This document shows, piece after piece, positions 2,926 to 15,603 of a DNA stretch of 64,000 bases; within the stretch, counting starts at the first letter, position 1, and each line of letters starts with the position of its first letter. The DNA is taken from positions 3,581,786-3,645,785 of the forward strand of contig NZ_JAGIOO010000001.1 in NCBI RefSeq assembly GCF_017876755.1. The letters run 5' to 3'. A model generated the notes under the pieces. The model was not told the origin of the DNA. It saw nothing but the letters and a program-made list of their open reading frames with translations, and did not search any database. The position numbers were made by a program, and so were the translations under genes. This DNA is from Crossiella equi. GTDB lineage: Bacteria; Actinomycetota; Actinomycetes; Mycobacteriales; Pseudonocardiaceae.

Positions 2926-2982
2926 CCACCGGGGCGGTCCGCGCGACGTTGGGGTGTCCGGCACGTGCTGAGGGGGACCTTG

Positions 2983-4818
2983 ATGGCAGACGGCTTGCTC
3001 CGGCGGTTGCGGTGGTGGTTCGTCGGACTCGCGATCTTCGGTGTGGTCCTGCTGGTGGCCGTGCGGCCCGGCGGGCCGTTCGAACCCGGGCCACCGCCGC
3101 CGGCGCCGTGCACCGGGGACGTGGTCGACGTGTCCGTGGTGGTCTCCCCGGAGAAGCTCGACCTGATGGGCGCGCTGGCCAGGGAGTACGGGCAGGCCAA
3201 GCGGTCCGTGCGGGGGCGGTGCGCGGCCGCGCACGTGGTCAAGTCCTCCGAGCTGGCCGGGGGCGGCGCGGTGGAGGCCATGGCCTGCGGCTGGGATCCC
3301 GCCTACCTCGGCAGACCCCGGCCGGACGCGTGGAGCCCGGCCGCGGTGACCTGGCTCAAGGTCGCCCAGCAGCGGCACCTCAAGTGCCCGGACAAGCCGA
3401 CCGGGGTCTCCCCCACCGCCGACCGGGACGCGGTCAGCCTGGCCAAGACGCCGCTGGTGGTGGGCATGCCGGAGCCGATGGCCAAGGCCCTGGGCTGGCC
3501 GGAGAAGAGCATCGGCTGGCGCACGCTGCTGGAGCTGTCACTGGACCCGGCCGGCTGGGCGCGCTACGGGCACCCCGAGTGGGGTGCGTTCCGGCTCGGC
3601 AAGACCAACCCAGGCCTGTCCACCTCGGGCCTGCACGCCACGATCGCCACGTTCTTCGCGGGCACCGGCCACTCCGACGACCTGTCCGAGTCCGACCTCG
3701 GCGACCAGGCCGCCGCGGGCTACGTGCGGGGAGTGGAGCAGAGCGTCGTGCACTACGGCGACACCACGCTGACCTTCCTGCAGAACCTGTACGAGGCGGG
3801 CGCGCGGCCGGGCGCGAGCGGGCTGGACTACATCAGCGCGGTCACCGTCGAGGAGAAGTCCGTGCTGGACTTCAACCGCGGCCAGCCCGAGGGCCGCACC
3901 GAGGGCAGCCCGGCACCGCCGAAGGTGCCGCTGGCCGCGGTGTACCCGCACGAGGGCACGCTGATGTCGGACAACCCGTACCTGGTGCTGGAGTGGCCGG
4001 ACGCCGACCCGCTGCGCAAGGCGGTGGCCAAGGACTTCCAGGGCTTCCTGACCGAGCGCGCGCACCGCTTCACCGAGGCCGGGTTCCGGGGCCCGGACGG
4101 CAAGCCCGGACAGGCCCTGCGCGAGGCCAAGGGTGTGCTGGCCGACCGCGACGTGAAGCTGATGAACTCGCCGTCCGGACCGGTGATCGCGCGCATGCCC
4201 GAGCTGTGGCAGCAGCTGCGCAAGCGCGCCAACGTGCTGATGGTGCTGGACACCTCGGGCTCGATGAACGACCCGACCGTGCCCGGCGGCCCGACCCGGC
4301 TGGACACCGCGAAGCAGGCCGCGGTCGGCGCGGCGCTGGACGGCCTGGCCCCGGACGACCGGCTCGGCCTGTGGACGTTCAGCTCGCCGCTGGGCTCCGA
4401 GCGCACACCGTGGCGGGCGCTGGTGGAGCAGGGGCCGGTGGCACAGGTGTTGCCGCGCTACCGCGAGGAGATCGGCAAGCTCAAGCAGGGCAACGGCGGG
4501 ACCGCGCTGTACGCGACGATCCGGCAGGTGCAGCGCGAGCTGCGCGCGAGCCTGGACCCCAGCCGCATCAACGCGGTGGTGCTGCTCAGCGACGGCGCCA
4601 ACCAATACCCGGAGGATGAGAACCTGGACAGCCTGGTCGAGGACCTGAAGGCGAACAGCCCGGAGAAGTCGGTGCGCGTGTTCCCCATCGCCTACGGCGA
4701 GGACGGGCACCTGCGCGTGCTGGAGCGGATCGCGCAGGCCTCACGGGCCAAGGCCTACGACTCCAGCGACCCGACCTCGCTGGACAAGGTGCTCACGCAG
4801 GTGCTGTCGAACTTCTGA
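2983..4818 (+). CDS. membrane-anchored solute-binding plus VWA domain protein
   Basis: 611 residues. One transmembrane segment (about residues 12-31) is followed by an extracytoplasmic solute-binding-like region and then a C-terminal von Willebrand A domain. The VWA domain carries the metal-binding DTSGSM motif at residues 423-428 and a later LLSDG strand. Such proteins are thought to sit outside the membrane and bind a ligand or a protein partner in a metal-dependent way. A Cys after the membrane helix lies in PAPCTG, but the context is a poor lipobox. The ATG at 2983 is preferred over the GTG at 2965 because AGGGGG lies just upstream of it. Confidence 0.75.
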   Translation: MADGLLRRLRWWFVGLAIFGVVLLVAVRPGGPFEPGPPPPAPCTGDVVDVSVVVSPEKLDLMGALAREYGQAKRSVRGRCAAAHVVKSSELAGGGAVEAMACGWDPAYLGRPRPDAWSPAAVTWLKVAQQRHLKCPDKPTGVSPTADRDAVSLAKTPLVVGMPEPMAKALGWPEKSIGWRTLLELSLDPAGWARYGHPEWGAFRLGKTNPGLSTSGLHATIATFFAGTGHSDDLSESDLGDQAAAGYVRGVEQSVVHYGDTTLTFLQNLYEAGARPGASGLDYISAVTVEEKSVLDFNRGQPEGRTEGSPAPPKVPLAAVYPHEGTLMSDNPYLVLEWPDADPLRKAVAKDFQGFLTERAHRFTEAGFRGPDGKPGQALREAKGVLADRDVKLMNSPSGPVIARMPELWQQLRKRANVLMVLDTSGSMNDPTVPGGPTRLDTAKQAAVGAALDGLAPDDRLGLWTFSSPLGSERTPWRALVEQGPVAQVLPRYREEIGKLKQGNGGTALYATIRQVQRELRASLDPSRINAVVLLSDGANQYPEDENLDSLVEDLKANSPEKSVRVFPIAYGEDGHLRVLERIAQASRAKAYDSSDPTSLDKVLTQVLSNF

Positions 4819-4825
4819 ACCGGAC

Positions 4826-4840
4826 AGTCCACAGTGGACT
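4826..4840. repeat. 15-base palindrome AGTCCACAGTGGACT
   Basis: A perfect palindrome around a central base, just after the VWA stop and upstream of the small peptide gene. The 11-base core TCCACAGTGGA recurs at 32833-32843 and 44478-44488, and a centre variant TCCACTGTGGA at 22227-22237 and 52528-52538. Confidence 0.6.
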
Positions 4841-4958
4841 GGTTTGCTCAGGGCATTCTCAGGTGGACGAAAGGTCGTGGAAACGCCGTGCCGCGTAGGT
4901 TCGTTGGTGTCAGAGGGAAAACCCGCTGGCACCACCGCACCGACGAGAGGTGATCACC

Positions 4959-5090
4959 ATGTCCGACCGGTTCGTCCCCGCCATCCCCGCCCTTCCCACC
5001 ATCCCGGCCGTGCCCGCGCTGCCGCGCGTGGAGGTCCGACCGCGCTGCGGCTGGATCCGCCGTGGCGTCGTCGTCAAGCCGCGCGGCTGA
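4959..5090 (+). CDS. 43-residue proline-periodic basic peptide
   Basis: A short gene with a strong ribosome site (GAGAGG, eight bases before the ATG). Residues 7-24 are six perfect triplets of Pro, a small residue and an aliphatic one: PAI, PAL, PTI, PAV, PAL, PRV. The triplets use varied codons, so the period is kept at protein level. The tail RPRCGWIRRGVVVKPRG is strongly basic with a single Cys30 and Trp32. No signal peptide or membrane segment is seen. It lies 64 bases upstream of an ABC exporter, with a hairpin between. I do not recognise the family. A secreted or modified peptide exported by the neighbour is an inference; it could also be a small regulator. Confidence 0.7.
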   Translation: MSDRFVPAIPALPTIPAVPALPRVEVRPRCGWIRRGVVVKPRG

Positions 5091-5104
5091 GCACGCGGTG
5101 ACCT

Positions 5105-5134
5105 GGGGGCCGGATCCGGGCGGGTCCGGCCCCC
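5105..5134 (+). terminator. intercistronic hairpin between peptide and ABC genes
   Basis: GGGGGCCGGA (5105-5114) pairs perfectly with 5125-5134 across a ten-base loop. It lies 14 bases after the peptide stop and just ahead of the ABC gene's ribosome site. It could terminate or attenuate, leaving more peptide message than transporter message. Confidence 0.6.
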
Positions 5135-5154
5135 ACCGCTTGAGGTGAGGAGCC

Positions 5155-6876
5155 GTGGTGGCGGAATCTGTTGGGGTGGAGGCGGTCCTGGCGCCAGTGC
5201 GGTCGGCGCGTCAGGTCGTGCGACGGTTCTGGCCGGTGGCCAGGGCCAACCGGTGGCTGCTCGCCGCCGGGGTGCTGACCTCGGTGCTGGCGGCGGCCTC
5301 GGCCACGGCGGTGGTGCTGTTGTTCGCGAGCATCACCGACAACGCCCTGCGCACCGGGGACCTGGGCGCGTTCTGGGCCCCCGCGCTGTGGTGGGGCGGA
5401 CTCGCGGTGGCCACCGGGTTCCTCACCTTCCTCGGGCACTACTGCACGGCGGTCGCGGCCGAGCGGTTCCTGCTCGCGTTGCGCGGCAAGGTGTTCGCGC
5501 ACCTGCAACGCCTGTCGCCCGGGTACTTCGAGACTCGGCGGCGCGGTGACCTGCTGTCCCGCCTCACCAGCGACGTGGAGTCGGTGGAGGAGCTGGTCGG
5601 GTCCGGGCTGGTGGAGATCGTCACCGCCGTGCTCAGCGTGGTCTTCTTCGCCACCGGCGCGGTGTTCCTCAGCTGGCAGCTCGCGGTGGCCACATTCGTG
5701 GTGGTACCGGTGTTCCTGCTCATCGCCCGCGTTTTCTCCCGGCGGATCAACCGGATCGGGCGGGTGGAGCGGGCCCGGCACGGGGAACTGACCGCGGTGC
5801 TGGAGGAGAACCTGGCCAACGTCGCGCTCGTGCAGGCCTACCGGCGGGAGCGCACCGAGCAGGACCGCCTGGCCGAGCAGGGGCGCGGGTGGATGCGGAG
5901 CAAGCTGCGGCTGGCCCGGCTGGGCGCGCTGTACGCGCCGCTGGTGCACGTGGCCGAGACGGCGTCCATGCTGCTTGTGCTCGGGCTCGGGGCCTGGCAG
6001 ATCGCGGCGGGCACGCTGACCATCGGCGGGCTGTTCGCCTTCGCCGCGTTCATCGGCTACCTGTACCCGCCGCTGCGCGGGCTCGGGCAGCTCACGCTCA
6101 CCGTCAGCGCGGCCACCACCGGATCGGCCCGGTTGATCGAGGTGCTGGACGCCGAGCCCGAGGTGGCCGACCCGACCGGGGCGGTGGACCCCGGGCGGTC
6201 GAGCGGGCGGGTGGAGCTGTGCGGGGTCACCTTCGGGTACGCGGGCACGCGCACCGCGGCGCTGCACGAGGTGTCCTTGCACGTGGCGCCCGGGGAGCTG
6301 GTCGCGGTGACCGGGGCCAGCGGGGCCGGGAAGTCGACCGTGGCCAAGCTGCTGCTGCGCTTCCACGACCCGGTGGCGGGGTCGGTGCGCCTGGACGGCG
6401 TGGACCTGCGGGAGCTGCCACTGGCCGCGGTGCGGCGGGAGATCGCCCTGCTGCACCAGGAAACGCTGTTGTGGCAGGCCAGCATCGCGGACAACATCGC
6501 CTACGGGCGACCCGGCGCGACGCGCGAGCAGGTGGTCGCGGCGGCCCGGGCGGCGGACGCGCACGAGTTCGTTCGGCGGCTGCCCGAGGGCTACGACACG
6601 CTGGTCGGCGACCGGGGGCACCGGCTGTCGGGCGGGCAGCGGCAGCGGATCGCCATCGCGCGGGCGATGATCGCGGACGCGTCCGTGCTGGTGCTGGACG
6701 AGCCGACGGCCGGGCTGGACGCGGAGTCGGCGCTCCGGGTGGTGGAACCGCTGCGGCGGTTGGCACACGGGCGGACCGCGGTGCTCATCACGCACGACCC
6801 CGCGCTGGCGGCCCTGGCGGACCGGGTGGTCACCGTGGCGGACGGGCGGATTTCGCGGGAGATGTCGAACTTCTGA
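5155..6876 (+). CDS. ABC exporter, fused membrane and ATP-binding domains
   Basis: 573 residues: a six-helix exporter membrane domain (about residues 30-310) followed by an ATP-binding domain. Walker A is GASGAGKST (387-395), the signature is LSGGQ (491-495) and Walker B is VLVLDEP (511-517); all are intact. As a half-transporter it would act as a dimer. There is no N-terminal C39 peptidase domain, so any leader removal would need another enzyme. GTG at 5155 or 5158 follows GAGGTGAGG. The peptide gene directly upstream and the hairpin between them suggest the peptide is its cargo (inference); lipid or drug export is the alternative. Confidence 0.85.
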   Translation: MVAESVGVEAVLAPVRSARQVVRRFWPVARANRWLLAAGVLTSVLAAASATAVVLLFASITDNALRTGDLGAFWAPALWWGGLAVATGFLTFLGHYCTAVAAERFLLALRGKVFAHLQRLSPGYFETRRRGDLLSRLTSDVESVEELVGSGLVEIVTAVLSVVFFATGAVFLSWQLAVATFVVVPVFLLIARVFSRRINRIGRVERARHGELTAVLEENLANVALVQAYRRERTEQDRLAEQGRGWMRSKLRLARLGALYAPLVHVAETASMLLVLGLGAWQIAAGTLTIGGLFAFAAFIGYLYPPLRGLGQLTLTVSAATTGSARLIEVLDAEPEVADPTGAVDPGRSSGRVELCGVTFGYAGTRTAALHEVSLHVAPGELVAVTGASGAGKSTVAKLLLRFHDPVAGSVRLDGVDLRELPLAAVRREIALLHQETLLWQASIADNIAYGRPGATREQVVAAARAADAHEFVRRLPEGYDTLVGDRGHRLSGGQRQRIAIARAMIADASVLVLDEPTAGLDAESALRVVEPLRRLAHGRTAVLITHDPALAALADRVVTVADGRISREMSNF

Positions 6877-9364: not shown

Positions 9365-10027
9365 ATGACTCGACGACTCATCACGATGGCGCTGGTAGGC
9401 GCCGTCGCCCTGCTGATGGGCAGCGCCGGGGCGAGCGCGACGGAGCCGGTGGCACCGGAGAAGGCGGCGGCCGTCGCCGCGCACGAGCTGGGCGTGCAGG
9501 CCCAGAGCAGAACCCTCAACTACACCTGGGCCCGGCAGCAGACCGGGTACTGGTGCGGGCCCGGGTCCGCGTGGATCGCGCTGAGCACGCGGGTCAGCCC
9601 GCCCAGCCAGCAGACCCTGGCGAACTACATGGGCACCACGACCAACGGGACCAACCACATCGGCCTGGTGCGCGACGCGCTCAACCGGTACGCGAACACC
9701 TCGTGGTTCGCGGCCAAGAACATGTACGACCCGCCCACCCAGGCGCAGCGCGACCTGCTCAAGCGGGACGTGCTGCTCAACATCGACAACGGGTACCCGC
9801 TGGTGGCCAACGTGGTCAGCGGCTGGCGTCCGCCGGGCTACCCGGGCGGCACGATCTACCACTACGTCGCCATCGTGGGCTACGGCGACTACGGCAACAC
9901 CGTGCTGGTGGCCGACCCCGCCGGTGAGGGCGCGGGCGGCGGTGGCTGGGCCAACGTGCCGCGTGCCTACTGGGTGAGCACGCACGACATGGGCACCTGG
10001 ATCGGCGGCAAGGGCTACGCGGCCTGA
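9365..10027 (+). CDS. secreted C39-like cysteine protease
   Basis: 220 residues with a Tat/Sec-like signal peptide (basic start, hydrophobic residues 6-19, ASA near 23-25). The papain-like C39 core follows. QQTGYWCGPGSAW contains the nucleophile Cys64, IYHYVAIVGY contains His166, and VADPAG supplies Asp184. It is a free-standing secreted protease, unlike the cytosolic C39 domains fused to bacteriocin exporters. A ribosome site (GGAGCGAGG) precedes the ATG. Its substrate cannot be read from the sequence. Confidence 0.8.
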   Translation: MTRRLITMALVGAVALLMGSAGASATEPVAPEKAAAVAAHELGVQAQSRTLNYTWARQQTGYWCGPGSAWIALSTRVSPPSQQTLANYMGTTTNGTNHIGLVRDALNRYANTSWFAAKNMYDPPTQAQRDLLKRDVLLNIDNGYPLVANVVSGWRPPGYPGGTIYHYVAIVGYGDYGNTVLVADPAGEGAGGGGWANVPRAYWVSTHDMGTWIGGKGYAA

Positions 10028-10121: not shown

Positions 10122-11351
10122 TCAGGCTGTCGCGAGTGCGGTGGTCGGCGACAACCTGGCCGCGCGCCCGGCGGGGAACCACCCCGCCAGGGTGCCGATG
10201 AGCACCGAGGCCCCGACGCCGCCGGCGATCGCCTCCGCGGGAAGCGCCACCGGCCAGTCGTTGCTCATCGCCCAGACGATGCTCGCGCCCAGGCCGAGGA
10301 GTACCCCGAACACCCCTCCCAGCCCGGACAGCAGCACCGCCTCGGTGAGGAACTGCGCCCTGATCTGCCCCTTGCCCGCCCCGAGCGAGCGCCGCAGGCC
10401 GATCTCGGACCGCCGTTCCAGCACTGAGATGACCATCGTGTTCGCCACGCCCACGCCGCCGACCAGCAGCGCGACCGCGCCCAGGCCGAGGAAGAGCGTG
10501 GTGAACGTGGCCTTGCTCTGGATCTGGGCGGCCAGCGCGTCCGAGGGGCGGCTGACCTTGACCTCCTCCGGGTGCTGCGGGTTGACCGTGGCGGCCAGCA
10601 CCTCGCGCACCCCCTCCACGGTGGCCTCGTCGGAGCGCTCGTAGACGGTGGTCGGGTTGCCCTGGAAGCCCAGGTACTCCTTGGCCGCGGCCCAGCCGAC
10701 CATGGCGGTGCGGTCCAGCTCCGGGGCCAGCGGCAGCTCGTCCAGGATGCCGATCACCGTGAACCACTTGCCGTCCAGGTAGACCTGCTCGCCGGCCTTG
10801 CCCACCGCGAGGCGTTCGGCGGCGATCTTGCCCAGCACCACGGTCGGGTACTTGGCGGTGGCCGCGTTGAACCAGCTGCCCAGCTTGACCGAGCCGCCCA
10901 GGGTCCTCAGCAGCTCCATCTCCACGGCCTTGACGTCGAGCGCGCCGTTGGAACCGGGATCGGCCTTGTCGCTGCGCAGGACGTTCTTGCCCGGCAAGGC
11001 GGCCACCGAGGCGGCGTTGAGCACGGATCGGATGCGGCGCACCATGGCCGAGGCGTCCTCCGGCAGCTTCGCCTTGTCCCCGCTGAACATCTGCTCACCT
11101 GGACCGACGGTGAGCAGGTTGGTGCCGAGGGCGGCCAGCTTGGCCTCCAGCTCTGCTTTGCTGGACGCCGAGATGCCCATCACGGCCACCATGGCGGCCA
11201 CCCCGATCGCGATGCCCAGCGCGGACAGCACCGCCCGCGCGGGTCGGCCGAACACCCCGGTGAGCCCGGCGCGCGCCAGGTCGAGCATGCCGATCCGCGC
11301 CGACTTCGGCAGCGGCACGTGACCGTCCTTCGGCGGCTTCAGGCGGATCAT
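10122..11351 (-). CDS. MacB/FtsX-type ABC transporter permease
   Basis: 409 residues. One membrane helix near residues 38-60, a ~210-residue extracytoplasmic domain, then three helices at the C-terminal end ([30 protein letters not shown], and the final pair). That topology and the [17 protein letters not shown] motif define the MacB-type permease family, which uses ATP to move an outside adaptor rather than pump through a channel. It is the last gene of a four-gene operon on this strand, overlapping its ATPase by four bases. The whole operon is divergent from an OmpR-type two-component system. Confidence 0.88.
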
Positions 11352-12034
11352 GCGGCCACCAGCCCGGTGTCGTGGCGCACGCGCCCGTCCAGCAGCTCCA
11401 CCCGGCGCGGCAGCGACTGGGCGATGCCCATGTCGTGCGTGATCACCGCGATCGTGGTGCCGTCCTCGTTGAGCTCGTGCAGCAGGTCCAGCACGCCCCG
11501 CCCGGAGTTGGAGTCCAGCGCGCCGGTGGGCTCGTCGGCCAGCACGATCGCCGGGCGGCCGACCAGGGCCCTGGCGATGGCCACGCGCTGGCGCTCACCG
11601 CCGGAGAGCTCGGTGGGCCGGTGGCCCACGCGGTGACCGAGGCCGACCCGCTCCAGGGCGTGCACCGCCCGCCGGTGCCGCTCCGCCCTGGGCACCCCGT
11701 GGTAGAGCAGGCCGGTGGCCACGTTCTGCGCCGCCGACAGGTACGGGGTGAGGAAGAACTGCTGGAAGACGAAGCCGATCCAGTGCGCGCGCACCGCGGA
11801 GAGCTGCCGGTCGGACAGCTTCGCGACCTCGTGCCCGAGCAGCCGGACCGTGCCCGAGCTCGGGTGGTCCAGGGTGCCCATGAGCTGGAGCATCGTGGAC
11901 TTGCCCGAGCCGGACGGCCCGACCACCGCGACCAGCTCGCCGGAGTCGATGCGCAGGCTCGCCTCGCGCAGCGCGTGCACGTCCCCGGCGTAGGTCTTGG
12001 AGACCTCGGTCAGCTCGATCACCGGGGTGGTCAT
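11348..12034 (-). CDS. MacB-type ABC transporter ATP-binding protein
   Basis: 228 residues with a full ATPase core: Walker [10 protein letters not shown] (39-47), signature LSGGE (143-147), Walker B IVLADEP (163-169) and switch His (VITHD). It belongs to the LolD/MacB class that pairs with FtsX-type permeases. The ATG at 12034 overlaps the adaptor's stop (ATGA), and its own stop overlaps the permease start, so the three proteins are translated as a unit. Confidence 0.92.
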
Positions 12035-13146
12035 ATGCCCGCCACCTTGACCTTCGCGCCCTCGGCCAGGCCGTTGCCGGTGACCTCGACCTGGCCCTTG
12101 GCGAACATGCCCAGCTCCACGCCGACCAGCTTGGTGCTTCCGTCGGCCTGCACGACCTCGACCGCGTAGCCGCCCTCGACCAGCGCGATGAGCGCGTTGA
12201 CCGGCACGGTGAGCACGTTCTCCTTGCGGCGGCTGGTGAACTGCACGTCCACCGGCGCGGCGTCCAGCTTGCCCGCGGCGGCCGGGTCGTCCAGGGACAC
12301 CTCGACCTTGATGGTGGACTTGCCGCCACCGCCGAAGCCGCCGCCCTGGTCCTTCTGCTCCTCGGCGACCGTGCCGACGCTGGTGACCTTGCCGGTGGTG
12401 GTCCTGCCGCCCGGCAGGTCCACCTCGACCGCCGCGCCCTCCTGCACCAGGTTCTGCTTGTCCACCGGCACGTCCACGGTGACCGTGCGGGTGGTGCCGG
12501 TGCCGGAGAACACCTTGCCCTGCGCGGGGCCACCGAGCAGCGCGTCCACCGCGGCCACCCGGAACGCGCCCGGCTGCACCACGACCGCGCCCGGGTCCAG
12601 CGCGCCGCTCTGCTCCACGCCGAGCTTCTTCTGCCACTTCTTCAGCGCGGCCGCGGTCTTGGCGTCGAACTTGTCGTCCACGGTGAACCCGGTGTAGCCG
12701 AGGGCGCGCAGGTTCTGCTCCAGCTGCCGCACGTCCGGTCCCTTGTCCATGCCGCTCTCGAACTTGCGCCAGAACGGCTTGTCGCCGTAGAGCAGCGGCA
12801 CCGGCTTGCCGTTGACCTCGAAGGCGGTGTCCCCGCGCTTGAGCTCGTCGCCGACCTTCGGCAGCCCGGTGAGCACCCCGCCCGGCCCGTTGGCCGCGAC
12901 GTCGTACCTGCCCCCGAAGCCGAGCTTGCCCTTGATCGAGGCGTGCTCTACCAGGGTGGTGCGGGAGACAGGCGCGGTCTTGGTCGTGGTGGGCTGGTTC
13001 CCCTTGTCCGCCTTGGCGTCGTCGCCGGTGCCGAGCACCAGCACCCCGGTGACGCCGACTGCGGTGACGGTGGCCGCGGTGAGGATGATGAATGGCCACT
13101 TGCGACGGTGCGGACGGGCCGCCGCGGGTTCGGGCGCATGCGTCAC
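12031..13146 (-). CDS. efflux adaptor (HlyD-like) with peptidoglycan-binding domain
   Basis: 371 residues. A membrane anchor lies at about residues 17-40, followed by the first half of a barrel-sandwich domain, a peptidoglycan-binding type-1 domain (about 136-182: [16 protein letters not shown] and [10 protein letters not shown]), then the remaining adaptor beta domains. It should link the MacB-type permease to the cell wall. The start is GTG at 13146, which overlaps the lipoprotein stop as GTGA; the long open frame upstream of it is antisense noise. A Gly-rich loop near the middle is low complexity. Confidence 0.85.
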
Positions 13147-13679
13147 TGCCCACCCCGAGGTGCGACCTGGCCCATGTCCTTGCCCGTGCAGTCCTTGTAG
13201 GCCTTCATGAGCTTCTCGTCGCCGAAGTCGAAGGTCATGGCCTTGCCGCTGCCCTCGTCCGGGACGTCGACACCCTTCTCCCGCAGACACTGGTTGATCT
13301 TGGCGCGTTTGTCCTTCTCCGCCGGGTCGTCCGGGTTGTACTCGCTCTTGGGCATGTACTTCTTGCAGGCGGCGTTGGCCTTCTCGTGCTTGTCCATCGC
13401 CTCCTTGTCGTCGGCGCGGATACCGGGCAGCGCGATCATGCCGTCACCGGACTGCTCCGGCATGTCGATGCCGTTGTCCCGCATGCACTTGGCCCACTTC
13501 TGGATGGCCTCCTTCGGGTCCTTCGGCACGTCGTCGCCCGCCGCCTGCTGTTCGCCCGCCTTGTTGCCTCCGTTGAGGCTGGCCGGGCCGTCCCCTTTGT
13601 TCTCCCCACCGCAGGCGGCGAGGCTGAACACGGTCATCAGGGCGGTCACGCCCAGTCCCACTCGGGTCAACGTCCTCAT
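13143..13679 (-). CDS. lipoprotein with four spaced cysteines, first gene of exporter operon
   Basis: 178 residues with a clear lipoprotein signal (lipobox SLAAC, Cys23). The mature part has two similar halves, each with a Cys followed by a Met/Leu-Arg-x-x-Gly-(I/V)-D-(M/V)-P motif ([10 protein letters not shown] and [10 protein letters not shown]) and a second Cys (65, 105, 131, 164). The repeat suggests a duplicated, disulfide-held small domain. Similar proteins commonly accompany actinobacterial MacAB-type exporters, but their role is unknown. It is the promoter-proximal gene and is divergent from the response regulator. Confidence 0.85.
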
Positions 13680-13769: not shown

Positions 13770-14423
13770 ATGCGGGTTCTGGTGGCCGAGGACGAGGCCG
13801 TGCTCGCCGACCTGGTGGCTGCCGGGTTGCGCGCGGAGGCGATGGCGGTGGACGTGGTGTACGACGGGCTCGCCGCCCAGGAACGCCTGGGCGTGCACGA
13901 CTACGACGTGCTGGTGCTCGACCGCGACCTGCCCGGACGGCACGGCGACCAGGTGTGCGCCGAGCTGGCCGCCACCGGCAGCCGCACGAAGGTGCTGATG
14001 CTCACCGCGGCCGGGGCGCTGGAGGACAAGGTGGACGGTCTGCGGCTGGGCGCCGACGACTACCTGACCAAGCCGTTCGAGTACCCGGAGCTGGTGGCCC
14101 GCGTGCAGGCACTGGGGCGGCGCAGCCAGCCCGCGCTGCCGCCGGTGCTGACCCGCAAGGGCGTGCGCCTGGACGTGGCCAACCGCCTGGTCAGCCGGGA
14201 CGGGCGGCGGGTGGACCTCTCGCCCAAGGAGTTCGCGGTGCTGTCGGTGCTGATGCGCGCCCAGGGCGCGGTGGTCAGCTCGGAGCGGCTGCTGGAGCTG
14301 GCCTGGGACGAGCACGCGGACCCGTTCACCAACGCGGTGCGGGTGGCCATGTCGAAACTGCGGGCCAAGCTCGGCGAGCCCCCGGTCATTGAGACGGTGC
14401 CCGGTGCCGGATACCGCATCTGA
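13770..14423 (+). CDS. OmpR-type response regulator
   Basis: 217 residues: a receiver domain with acidic pocket (AEDE, residues 6-9), phospho-acceptor Asp51 (VLVLDRDLPG) and Lys in LTKPF, followed by an OmpR winged helix (LSPKEFAVLSVLM to VETVPGAGYRI). It is coupled to the sensor kinase that starts inside its end. Its divergent position suggests it controls the MacAB-type operon. Confidence 0.9.
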   Translation: MRVLVAEDEAVLADLVAAGLRAEAMAVDVVYDGLAAQERLGVHDYDVLVLDRDLPGRHGDQVCAELAATGSRTKVLMLTAAGALEDKVDGLRLGADDYLTKPFEYPELVARVQALGRRSQPALPPVLTRKGVRLDVANRLVSRDGRRVDLSPKEFAVLSVLMRAQGAVVSSERLLELAWDEHADPFTNAVRVAMSKLRAKLGEPPVIETVPGAGYRI

Positions 14424-15603
14424 ACGCCCGCGGTCCCGGCTGACCGTCCGGGCCAAGCTGACCGCCCTCTACGGCACGTTGTTCCTGGTCAGCGGCGCGG
14501 TACTGCTGGTGGCGATCTACTTCCTGGTGCAGGACCAGCTCACCGGCAGGCTCGCGGTCGCCGCCCGGACCCTGCCGAGCTATGTCTACAACGGCGAGAG
14601 CTTCGTACCGCTCTCGGTCGACCCGGCGCCCTCGATGCCCGTCCAGGGGACGACGGTCCGGCTGGGCCAGCCGGTGCAGGACCTGGTGCGGGCGGCCGAG
14701 GACACCACCATGCAGACCCTGCTGCTGATCTCCGCGCTGTCCCTGGTCGGGGTGGCCGCGTTGTCGGTGGCCGCGGGCTGGTACCTGTCCGGCCGGGTGC
14801 TGCGGCCGCTGCACACCATCACCGCCACCGCGCAGCGGCTGTCCTCGACGAACCTGCACGAGCGCATCGACCTCTCCGGCCCGGACGACGAGCTGACCGA
14901 GCTGGCCGAGACCTTCGACGGCATGCTGGACCGCCTGGAGTCGGCGTTCGAGAGTCAGCGGCGGTTCGTGGCCAACGCCTCGCACGAGCTGCGCACACCG
15001 CTGGCCGTGCAGCGCGCCGCGGTGCAGATCGGGCTGGCGGGCAACCCCTCGCCCGAGCAGACCGCGGAGATCAAGGAGCAGCTGCTCACCGCGAACCGGC
15101 GCATCGAACGGCTCATCGACGGCCTGCTGGTGCTGGCCCGCAGTGACCAGGGCCTGGCCAAGCGCGGCCGGGTGGAGCTGCACGCGGTGGCCGCCGAGGC
15201 GGTCGAGCAGTACCGGGCCGAGGCCGACCGGCGGCACGTCGACGTGCAGACCCGGCTCGGCGAGACCGAGGTGCTCGGGGACAAGGTGCTGCTCACGCAG
15301 CTGGTCACCAACCTGGTGTCCAACGCGATCCGGCACAACACCGAGGGCGGCACGGTGTGGGTGCGCACCGACCCGTTCGGCGGGCTGGTGGTGTCCAACA
15401 CCGGCGCGACCGTGCCCCGCGACCAGGTGCCCCAGCTGTTCGAGCCGTTCCGGCGCGGTGAGGGCCGCACGGACAAGGGCGAAGGCGCTGGTCTGGGGCT
15501 GTCCATCGTGGACTCGATCACGCGGGCGCACGACGGCGCGGTGCACGCCGAGCCCCGGCCGGGCGGCGGGCTCCGGGTGAAGGTGTCGCTGCCGAGGCCT
15601 TGA
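14404..15603 (+). CDS. sensor histidine kinase
   Basis: 399 residues. Two membrane helices (about 22-44 and 105-127) flank a short ~60-residue outside loop. A HAMP linker, the H-box FVANASHELRTPL with His194, an N-box (NLVSNAIRHN) and a GLGLSIV G-box follow. GTG at 14404, inside the end of the response regulator gene, gives the usual family start; TTG at 14389 is an alternative. The small sensor loop suggests membrane or envelope stress sensing. TTGACA of a possible downstream promoter overlaps its stop. Confidence 0.9.
   Translation: MPDTASERPRSRLTVRAKLTALYGTLFLVSGAVLLVAIYFLVQDQLTGRLAVAARTLPSYVYNGESFVPLSVDPAPSMPVQGTTVRLGQPVQDLVRAAEDTTMQTLLLISALSLVGVAALSVAAGWYLSGRVLRPLHTITATAQRLSSTNLHERIDLSGPDDELTELAETFDGMLDRLESAFESQRRFVANASHELRTPLAVQRAAVQIGLAGNPSPEQTAEIKEQLLTANRRIERLIDGLLVLARSDQGLAKRGRVELHAVAAEAVEQYRAEADRRHVDVQTRLGETEVLGDKVLLTQLVTNLVSNAIRHNTEGGTVWVRTDPFGGLVVSNTGATVPRDQVPQLFEPFRRGEGRTDKGEGAGLGLSIVDSITRAHDGAVHAEPRPGGGLRVKVSLPRP

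Follow-up and report, generated by a model that had tools for sequence, protein, structure and literature searches.

The window analysed here, a stretch of 64,000 nucleotides from Crossiella equi, covers bases 3,581,786-3,645,785 of a 9.44-Mb single-contig genome. Near its start a short peptide gene, a hairpin and an ABC exporter follow one another (together called the cassette below), and a two-component system lies farther downstream:

4945..4956, + strand: Shine-Dalgarno sequence of the peptide gene (sequence reading; duplex energy)
4959..5090, + strand: short peptide gene, 43 aa, with Pro-x-aliphatic triplets and a basic tail (ORF read; positional conservation)
5092..5142, + strand: strong hairpin, core stem 5105-5134 (fold -41.5 kcal/mol)
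5155..6876, + strand: ABC exporter, a TMD plus NBD half-transporter of 573 aa (Pfam)
13770..14423, + strand: OmpR-type response regulator that probably controls the cassette (Pfam; identity to cassette regulators)
14389..15603, + strand: sensor histidine kinase paired with that regulator (ORF; identity to cassette kinase)

The peptide gene runs from ATG 4959 to a stop at 5088-5090, and its translation is MSDRFVPAIPALPTIPAVPALPRVEVRPRCGWIRRGVVVKPRG. An earlier note on this DNA had called it well initiated, and the numbers agree: the Shine-Dalgarno duplex reaches -16.4 kcal/mol, compared with -11.5 for the start of the exporter and -6.5 on average for randomly chosen upstream sites, all computed with the anti-Shine-Dalgarno letters of the 16S rRNA 3' end. 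An in-frame GTG at 4950 would give a 46-aa product; since it overlaps the Shine-Dalgarno sequence, the ATG is the likelier start. The peptide itself is also as that note described it, with six P-x-[VIL] triplets at residues 7-24, one Cys, one Trp and a basic character (net charge +6), and none of 200,000 shuffles of it contains a run of six triplets (maximum 5). It holds no Gly-Gly and, by eye, no double-glycine leader. With 43 aa, a charge of +6 and no Sec-like hydrophobic segment it fits the features of a leaderless short cationic peptide, and later cleavage would be possible. A known Rfam RNA leader or riboswitch was rejected for this locus, as covariance models gave no match up to E 1 over 4700-5300.

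Directly downstream, beyond the hairpin, lies the complete exporter that the earlier note had reported, with ABC_membrane (2.8e-49, residues 37-304) and ABC_tran (6.8e-32, residues 370-519) domains. A Pfam domain scan of the full-length protein found no C39 peptidase domain. In PDB and NCBIfam it is matched best by transporters of the ABCB/P-glycoprotein and MsbA types; identity with the MsbA lipid A exporter (TIGR02203) was rejected, as the score of 404.8 bits falls below the curated cut-off of 602.

Short genes upstream of related exporters

The exporter is patchily distributed, unlike a core developmental gene. All four congeners lack it at E 1e-100. A threshold of 1e-150 finds it in 46 of the 390 family genomes, and one of 1e-140 in 7 of 298 order genomes and 10 of 394 class genomes, the window's own genome included each time. 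In the six genomes from which paralogues were taken, members of the subfamily score at least 476 bits and the paralogous exporters at most 310. In a quickly built tree of 81 exporters, which carries a long-branch warning and leaves out L196 (broken exporter frame) and L219, a branch with SH-aLRT support of 100 separates the 73 peptide-linked exporters from the 8 of the outgroup, and the nine exporters of group A, the window's among them, also form a group with support 100. At L177/L196 a single in-frame TGA interrupts the exporter frame and the upstream peptide ORF is open; this exporter is possibly a decayed gene or a sequencing error. One cassette lies on a Streptomyces nigrescens plasmid, and another in an 11.85-Mb Nonomuraea record titled plasmid.

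Sequence search of 249 family genomes gave no credible homologue of the window peptide: the best match besides itself had E 4.5e-4 and covered 28 residues of a long frame at 54% identity, while 248 of the 249 genomes matched at E 1 or better, as expected because the peptide is biased in composition. Position was more informative. Of the 60 relative exporter loci with wide regions (41 of the 54 relative places in the family, 7/7 in the order and 12/12 in the class), 59 have a complete short upstream gene with an ATG start, 25-73 aa in length, and at the sixtieth, L146, the ORF runs into the contig end. The earlier note had staked its pairing beforehand on a short ORF upstream of exporter orthologues, and with 59 of 60 complete the pairing was not refuted. 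Six of the 13 family places outside the wide set were also viewed; five narrower loci (L126, L131, L134, L138, L139) have a short ATG ORF and L137 a GTG-start fragment only. Further loci found via the exporter (L223, L224, L273) carry a short ATG gene in 3/3 cases. Competing ORFs at a locus were chosen between by Shine-Dalgarno match and composition, and the ORF and the extrapolated exporter start are about 19-444 nt apart.

An automatic rule (ATG, 24-80 aa, Shine-Dalgarno match, GC3 - GC2 above 0.1, at least 150 bp intergenic) passes 46 of 56 eligible exporters compared with 29 of 283 control genes drawn from those regions (odds ratio 40, Fisher p 3.6e-27), a p-value that is overstated because the thresholds were set after the peptides had been seen and related loci are not independent. 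All ten exporters that fail it have a listed peptide, mostly Gly- or Arg-rich and below the GC3 or Shine-Dalgarno threshold. In the six genomes used for paralogues the rule passes 0 of 19 paralogous exporters, for which starts were extrapolated and no minimum gap was set, and several of which come second in an exporter pair; it also misses two of the four members there. Approached from the peptide, 10 of 101 genomes of one genus, presumably Streptomyces, hold an MSFHKIAPVKK-type peptide, and the exporter adjoins it in 10/10; the eight loci L265-L272 were found via the peptide and so are not independent evidence of pairing. By the sequences compared here, the short ORF keeps its place in front of the exporters of this subfamily, and the peptide-exporter pairing proposed in the earlier note is right and more general than the window alone could show.

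The hairpin also recurs. It has a z-score of -5.3 in the window, and the one after the peptide gene scores below -2 at 47 of 62 loci (12 shuffles per locus throughout), including 7 of 8 in clade A, where the exception is the nearest sister, L144 (z 0.7). The hairpin at 5092-5142 is probably a partial terminator or attenuator, and its conservation would suit either.

Composition, tandem copies and selection in the peptides

The peptides upstream of the exporter are hypervariable and biased in composition. They were assigned by eye to composition classes:

Class A: Pro-aliphatic-Arg (window and sisters)
Class B: MGFPxPxPGK-like, Pro-rich
Class C: MSFxKxxPVKK-like, Lys-Pro
Class D: Arg-Trp-Cys
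Class E: Gly-Trp
Class F: His-Arg-Asp and mixed
Class G: Gly-Tyr
Class H: Asp-rich

Many classes are strongly cationic and several neutral or acidic (charge -6 to 0), and 65 of 68 peptides, the window's included, are free of a hydrophobic 10-residue stretch, L144 being among the three exceptions. Composition tracks the exporter tree: the label changes 13 times as against 53.7 under shuffling, with 0 of 200 shuffles as low, a count that takes in all nine labels, outgroup included, and in which near-copies aid clustering. Nothing exceeded the cut-offs when ten peptides were run against Pfam and nine against NCBIfam; a single sub-threshold match, of a Gly-Trp peptide to KRTAP (E 0.2), was set aside.

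Conserved Pro periodicity, which the earlier note had looked for in relatives, did not appear. Among the 68 peptides only L144 and L149 otherwise reach even a run of two triplets, so the periodicity is a feature of the window locus alone. Of the nine class-A ORFs, four (window, L145, L146 and L151) end in PRG and differ in their remaining sequence, and class A has no conserved N-terminus (identity 0.28 against 0.25 shuffled). For classes B, C and G, identity rises further above the shuffled level in the first ten residues than in the remainder. Over the whole set Phe is enriched at residues 3-7, and 14 of 48 non-redundant peptides contain the pattern F..[AVILPH][AVILKF]P, whereas shuffled sets average 0.6 and reach at most 5 in 2000. 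A universal N-terminal recognition motif was nevertheless set aside, and we do not claim this pattern as a recognition signal, because it was picked post hoc and fails in class A.

Tandem copies occur outside class A, where each locus has a single ORF. Two copies are present at nine loci (L152, L159, L183, L184, L198, L211, L266, L267, L268). At L265 five peptide genes that resemble one another at the N-terminus, with almost no difference among the last three, lie about 1 kb upstream of one exporter, and a strong hairpin (-53.5 kcal/mol) follows solely the last of them.

Purifying selection on peptides of classes other than A is evident from their sequences. With pairs aligned as proteins, dN/dS pooled over 14 disjoint, hand-picked pairs, none of class A, is 0.46 (pS 0.268, pN 0.137); pairs at least 93% identical that differ range from 0.11 to 0.64, and some more distant non-A pairs exceed 1 (L203/L207 1.09, L161/L195 1.70). 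The seven alignable class-A pairs give 0.45-1.38 on poor alignments, those including the window peptide 0.78-1.01, likewise poorly aligned, and the window peptide itself lacks a close relative to align with. The expectation of dN/dS below 1 thus held for most close pairs of other classes and finds no clear support in class A. The earlier note had also argued from varied triplet codons to selection on the protein. The codons do vary, although Pro is encoded solely by CCC and CCG, but selection on the window peptide is unsupported, because the class-A values come from poor alignments and none was pooled.

Regulators, kinases and other neighbours

The response regulators of clade-A cassettes are 62-76% identical to the window's in all seven testable cases (L144, L145, L147-L151; L146 was left out for its contig edge), and regulator and related histidine kinase sit at most about 2 kb upstream of the exporter. 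In the window the pair at 13770-15603 is about 8 kb downstream of the cassette. No other protein of the genome matches the regulator of the nearest cassette as well as the one in this pair does (77%, the next 62%), and the pair's kinase shares 55% identity with that cassette's kinase across 385 aligned residues. From these identities the pair would be the cognate system of the cassette, separated from it by insertion or rearrangement. This two-component system and the family of peptides upstream of orthologous exporters both go beyond the earlier note.

That note had seen no peptide-modifying enzyme beside the short gene, and a Pfam scan of ten window proteins likewise found no RiPP-type enzyme. 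Elsewhere, in the part of the neighbours scanned, the only recurrent candidate modifying enzyme is a protein kinase, whose gene follows the exporter at 8 of 60 relative loci (L187, L188, L199, L200, L213, L216, L220, L221) and also at the plasmid locus L224; all three kinase proteins tested match Pfam Pkinase. The median Ser plus Thr content is 0.17 for the eight kinase-linked peptides and 0.06 for the remaining 60 (p 1.3e-4), and the eight are also richer than the 12 other class-F peptides (p 0.003), p-values that ignore the relatedness of the loci; Ser/Thr content can be equally high in the kinase-free peptides L211 and L189. The association suggests that kinase-linked cassettes may export phosphorylated cargo.

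Among ORFs of at least 60 aa, no family except the exporter is common to more than 9 of 61 regions, and no immunity gene was identified among neighbour genes of that size. Classes B, C and E have recurrent neighbours of their own, at 4-7 loci each. Several other genes of the window were recorded. A MacAB-like module (10122-13290) lies beside the two-component system; its adaptor has a PG_binding_1 domain, its permease and ATPase were named by reading alone, and permease and adaptor have no relatives in the clade-A regions. A Peptidase_C39_2-family protein with a signal-peptide-like start is encoded at 9365-10024, 2.5 kb after the exporter; because it too has no relative in the clade-A regions, a role in trimming the peptide is a mere thought. 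Upstream of the peptide gene lie a CyanoTRADDas_TM protein (2302-2922) and then a VWA protein (2965-4815), and a gene for a bacterial TMEM164-family membrane protein (1471-2184, Pfam E 7e-51) stands near an S-adenosylmethionine decarboxylase gene (642-1007).

Probable secretion of the peptide and competing explanations

We consider it probable that the cassette is a peptide-secretion unit, in which a peptidase-less exporter secretes a bacteriocin-like and probably unmodified peptide. What can be read directly from the DNA is the gene pair, its positional conservation, the hairpin, the links to an exporter clade and to a regulator, and the tandem copies outside class A; translation, export by this transporter, read-through and regulation we infer. 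In outline, the 43-aa gene would be strongly translated, and most of its transcripts would probably terminate at the hairpin while some run on into the exporter gene, an arrangement proposed to yield much peptide and little exporter. The adjacent ABC exporter, probably a homodimer, would carry the product out as a probably unmodified cationic peptide, and the OmpR-type two-component system would probably switch the cassette on. Once exported, the peptide would most likely serve in bacteriocin-like competition with other microbes, which fits the hypervariability and the mostly cationic, low-complexity composition. Antimicrobial activity is the weakest step, and we put it forward tentatively, at somewhat less than even chances. 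That the window peptide is cargo we also infer, helped by the tandem copies outside class A and by the way composition tracks the exporter tree; against secretion, MsbA-like exporters can carry other substrates. Also counting against this reading are the absence of an immunity gene among neighbour genes of at least 60 aa, the poorly aligned class-A pairs with dN/dS of 0.45-1.38 and the non-A pairs above 1, the lack of a conserved N-terminus and of tandem copies in class A, the nearest sister L144 with its hydrophobic stretch and no hairpin by the z test, and the neutral or acidic classes.

Small peptides with a dedicated exporter are well known, and the cassette is a variant of this theme. In class II bacteriocin and pheromone systems a small peptide with a double-glycine leader is exported by a peptidase-containing ABC exporter, often under a two-component system. 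The cassette likewise joins a small peptide to a dedicated ABC exporter; unlike class II and PCAT systems, the window exporter lacks the C39 peptidase domain and the peptide lacks Gly-Gly. Proline-rich antimicrobial peptides are rich in Pro and Arg and come mainly from animals, and a P-x-aliphatic repeat is unusual among them. The likeness to these is strongest in the MGFPxPxPGK peptides of class B; the window differs in its P-x-aliphatic repeat, and an antimicrobial role is here a putative one. A parallel in peptide and gene order is offered by leaderless bacteriocins (lactolisterin BU/aureocin A53-like and the LsbB group), which are likewise short (30-50 aa), apparently unmodified and without a leader, and whose operons place a terminator between the structural gene and the ABC transporter gene directly downstream, where the cassette has its hairpin (PMC6249370, PMC5413573); for lactolisterin BU the order given there is structural gene, terminator, ABC transporter (PMC6249370). 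In contrast to these operons, the cassette has no identified accessory or immunity gene (genes of at least 60 aa), its sub-branches carry a two-component system or a Ser/Thr kinase, and its peptides are hypervariable, actinomycete and of low complexity in Pro, Gly, His and Arg. The cassette is thus left as a candidate leaderless bacteriocin system, because no immunity gene was identified and activity is predicted only.

The same gene order could instead mark a regulatory leader peptide (uORF), with ribosomes slowing at runs of Pro, Arg, Lys, Asp/His or Gly/Trp, so that their stalling or release would set whether the hairpin halts transcription or translation of the exporter gene, as in the mgt and trp leaders. 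The strong hairpin between ORF and exporter would suit this, as would the biased composition of all the peptides, many of them plausibly hard to translate, the PRG end of class A, which could be a stalling end, and the single ORFs of that class. Short Pro- or acidic-codon ORFs that control transporter genes exist (PMC8092293, PMC11282234), and the mgt/trp leader attenuators likewise combine a short ORF, a hairpin and a transporter gene (PMC8092293). Unlike those leaders, the cassettes have tandem copies at ten loci of other classes, in one of which five copies precede a single strong hairpin, a variable spacing to the exporter, and peptides of up to 73 aa; the excess N-terminal identity in classes B, C and G and the empty Rfam search also speak against a leader. 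On this evidence, with the tandem copies, the variable gap and the N-terminal conservation favouring cargo, we regard a leader as rather unlikely. That the dN/dS pool excludes class A, and that class A has no tandem copies, slightly weakens the case for secretion and strengthens that for a leader and for a chance reading frame. A chance frame in GC-rich DNA would account for the 29 of 283 control genes that satisfy the same rule, for a window peptide that has no credible sequence homologue in 249 family genomes and for class-A dN/dS near 1; it is scarcely credible given the 46 of 56 exporters and 0 of 19 paralogues passing that rule, the dN/dS of 0.46 in other classes and the strong Shine-Dalgarno sequence and hairpin at the window locus.

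Export might also serve another end than killing, the peptide being structural or developmental (hyphal surface, spore coat, metal-binding, matrix) or a signal for the two-component system. Gly-Tyr, Gly-Trp, His-rich and Asp-rich classes do resemble matrix or metal-binding sequences, a two-component system stands beside clade A and no immunity gene was identified among genes of at least 60 aa, but the patchy exporter distribution (0/4 congeners, 46/390 family genomes) and the strong positive charge of many classes make this, in our judgement, unlikely. It is very improbable that the exporter is a drug or lipid pump with the peptide kept inside as a small accessory or regulatory subunit: its best matches are of the ABCB/P-glycoprotein and MsbA types and small transporter regulators are known, but 65 of 68 peptides have no hydrophobic stretch, and hypervariability and tandem copies would be odd beside a conserved pump.

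Returning to secretion, a bolder version, doubtful but conceivable, is that actinomycetes secrete a hitherto undescribed class of low-complexity, hypervariable peptides (Pro-aliphatic, Pro-Lys, Gly-Trp, Arg-Trp-Cys, His-Arg-Asp, Gly-Tyr), each type matched to its own branch of a single clade of peptidase-less ABC exporters. The exporter branch would dictate cargo composition, and in a sub-branch an operonic Ser/Thr kinase would phosphorylate Ser/Thr-rich cargo before export, giving a new kind of phosphorylated ribosomal peptide. No published description of exporter-paired peptides of this kind was found among openly accessible titles and abstracts. If the peptides are indeed secreted, current family libraries would miss a broad set of secreted actinomycete peptides, and the exporter would become a handle for mining peptides by their transporter instead of by precursor or modifying enzyme. 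It would then be testable how one exporter clade accepts Pro-rich, His/Arg-rich and Gly-Trp cargo, and whether peptides of such extreme low complexity serve bacterial competition.
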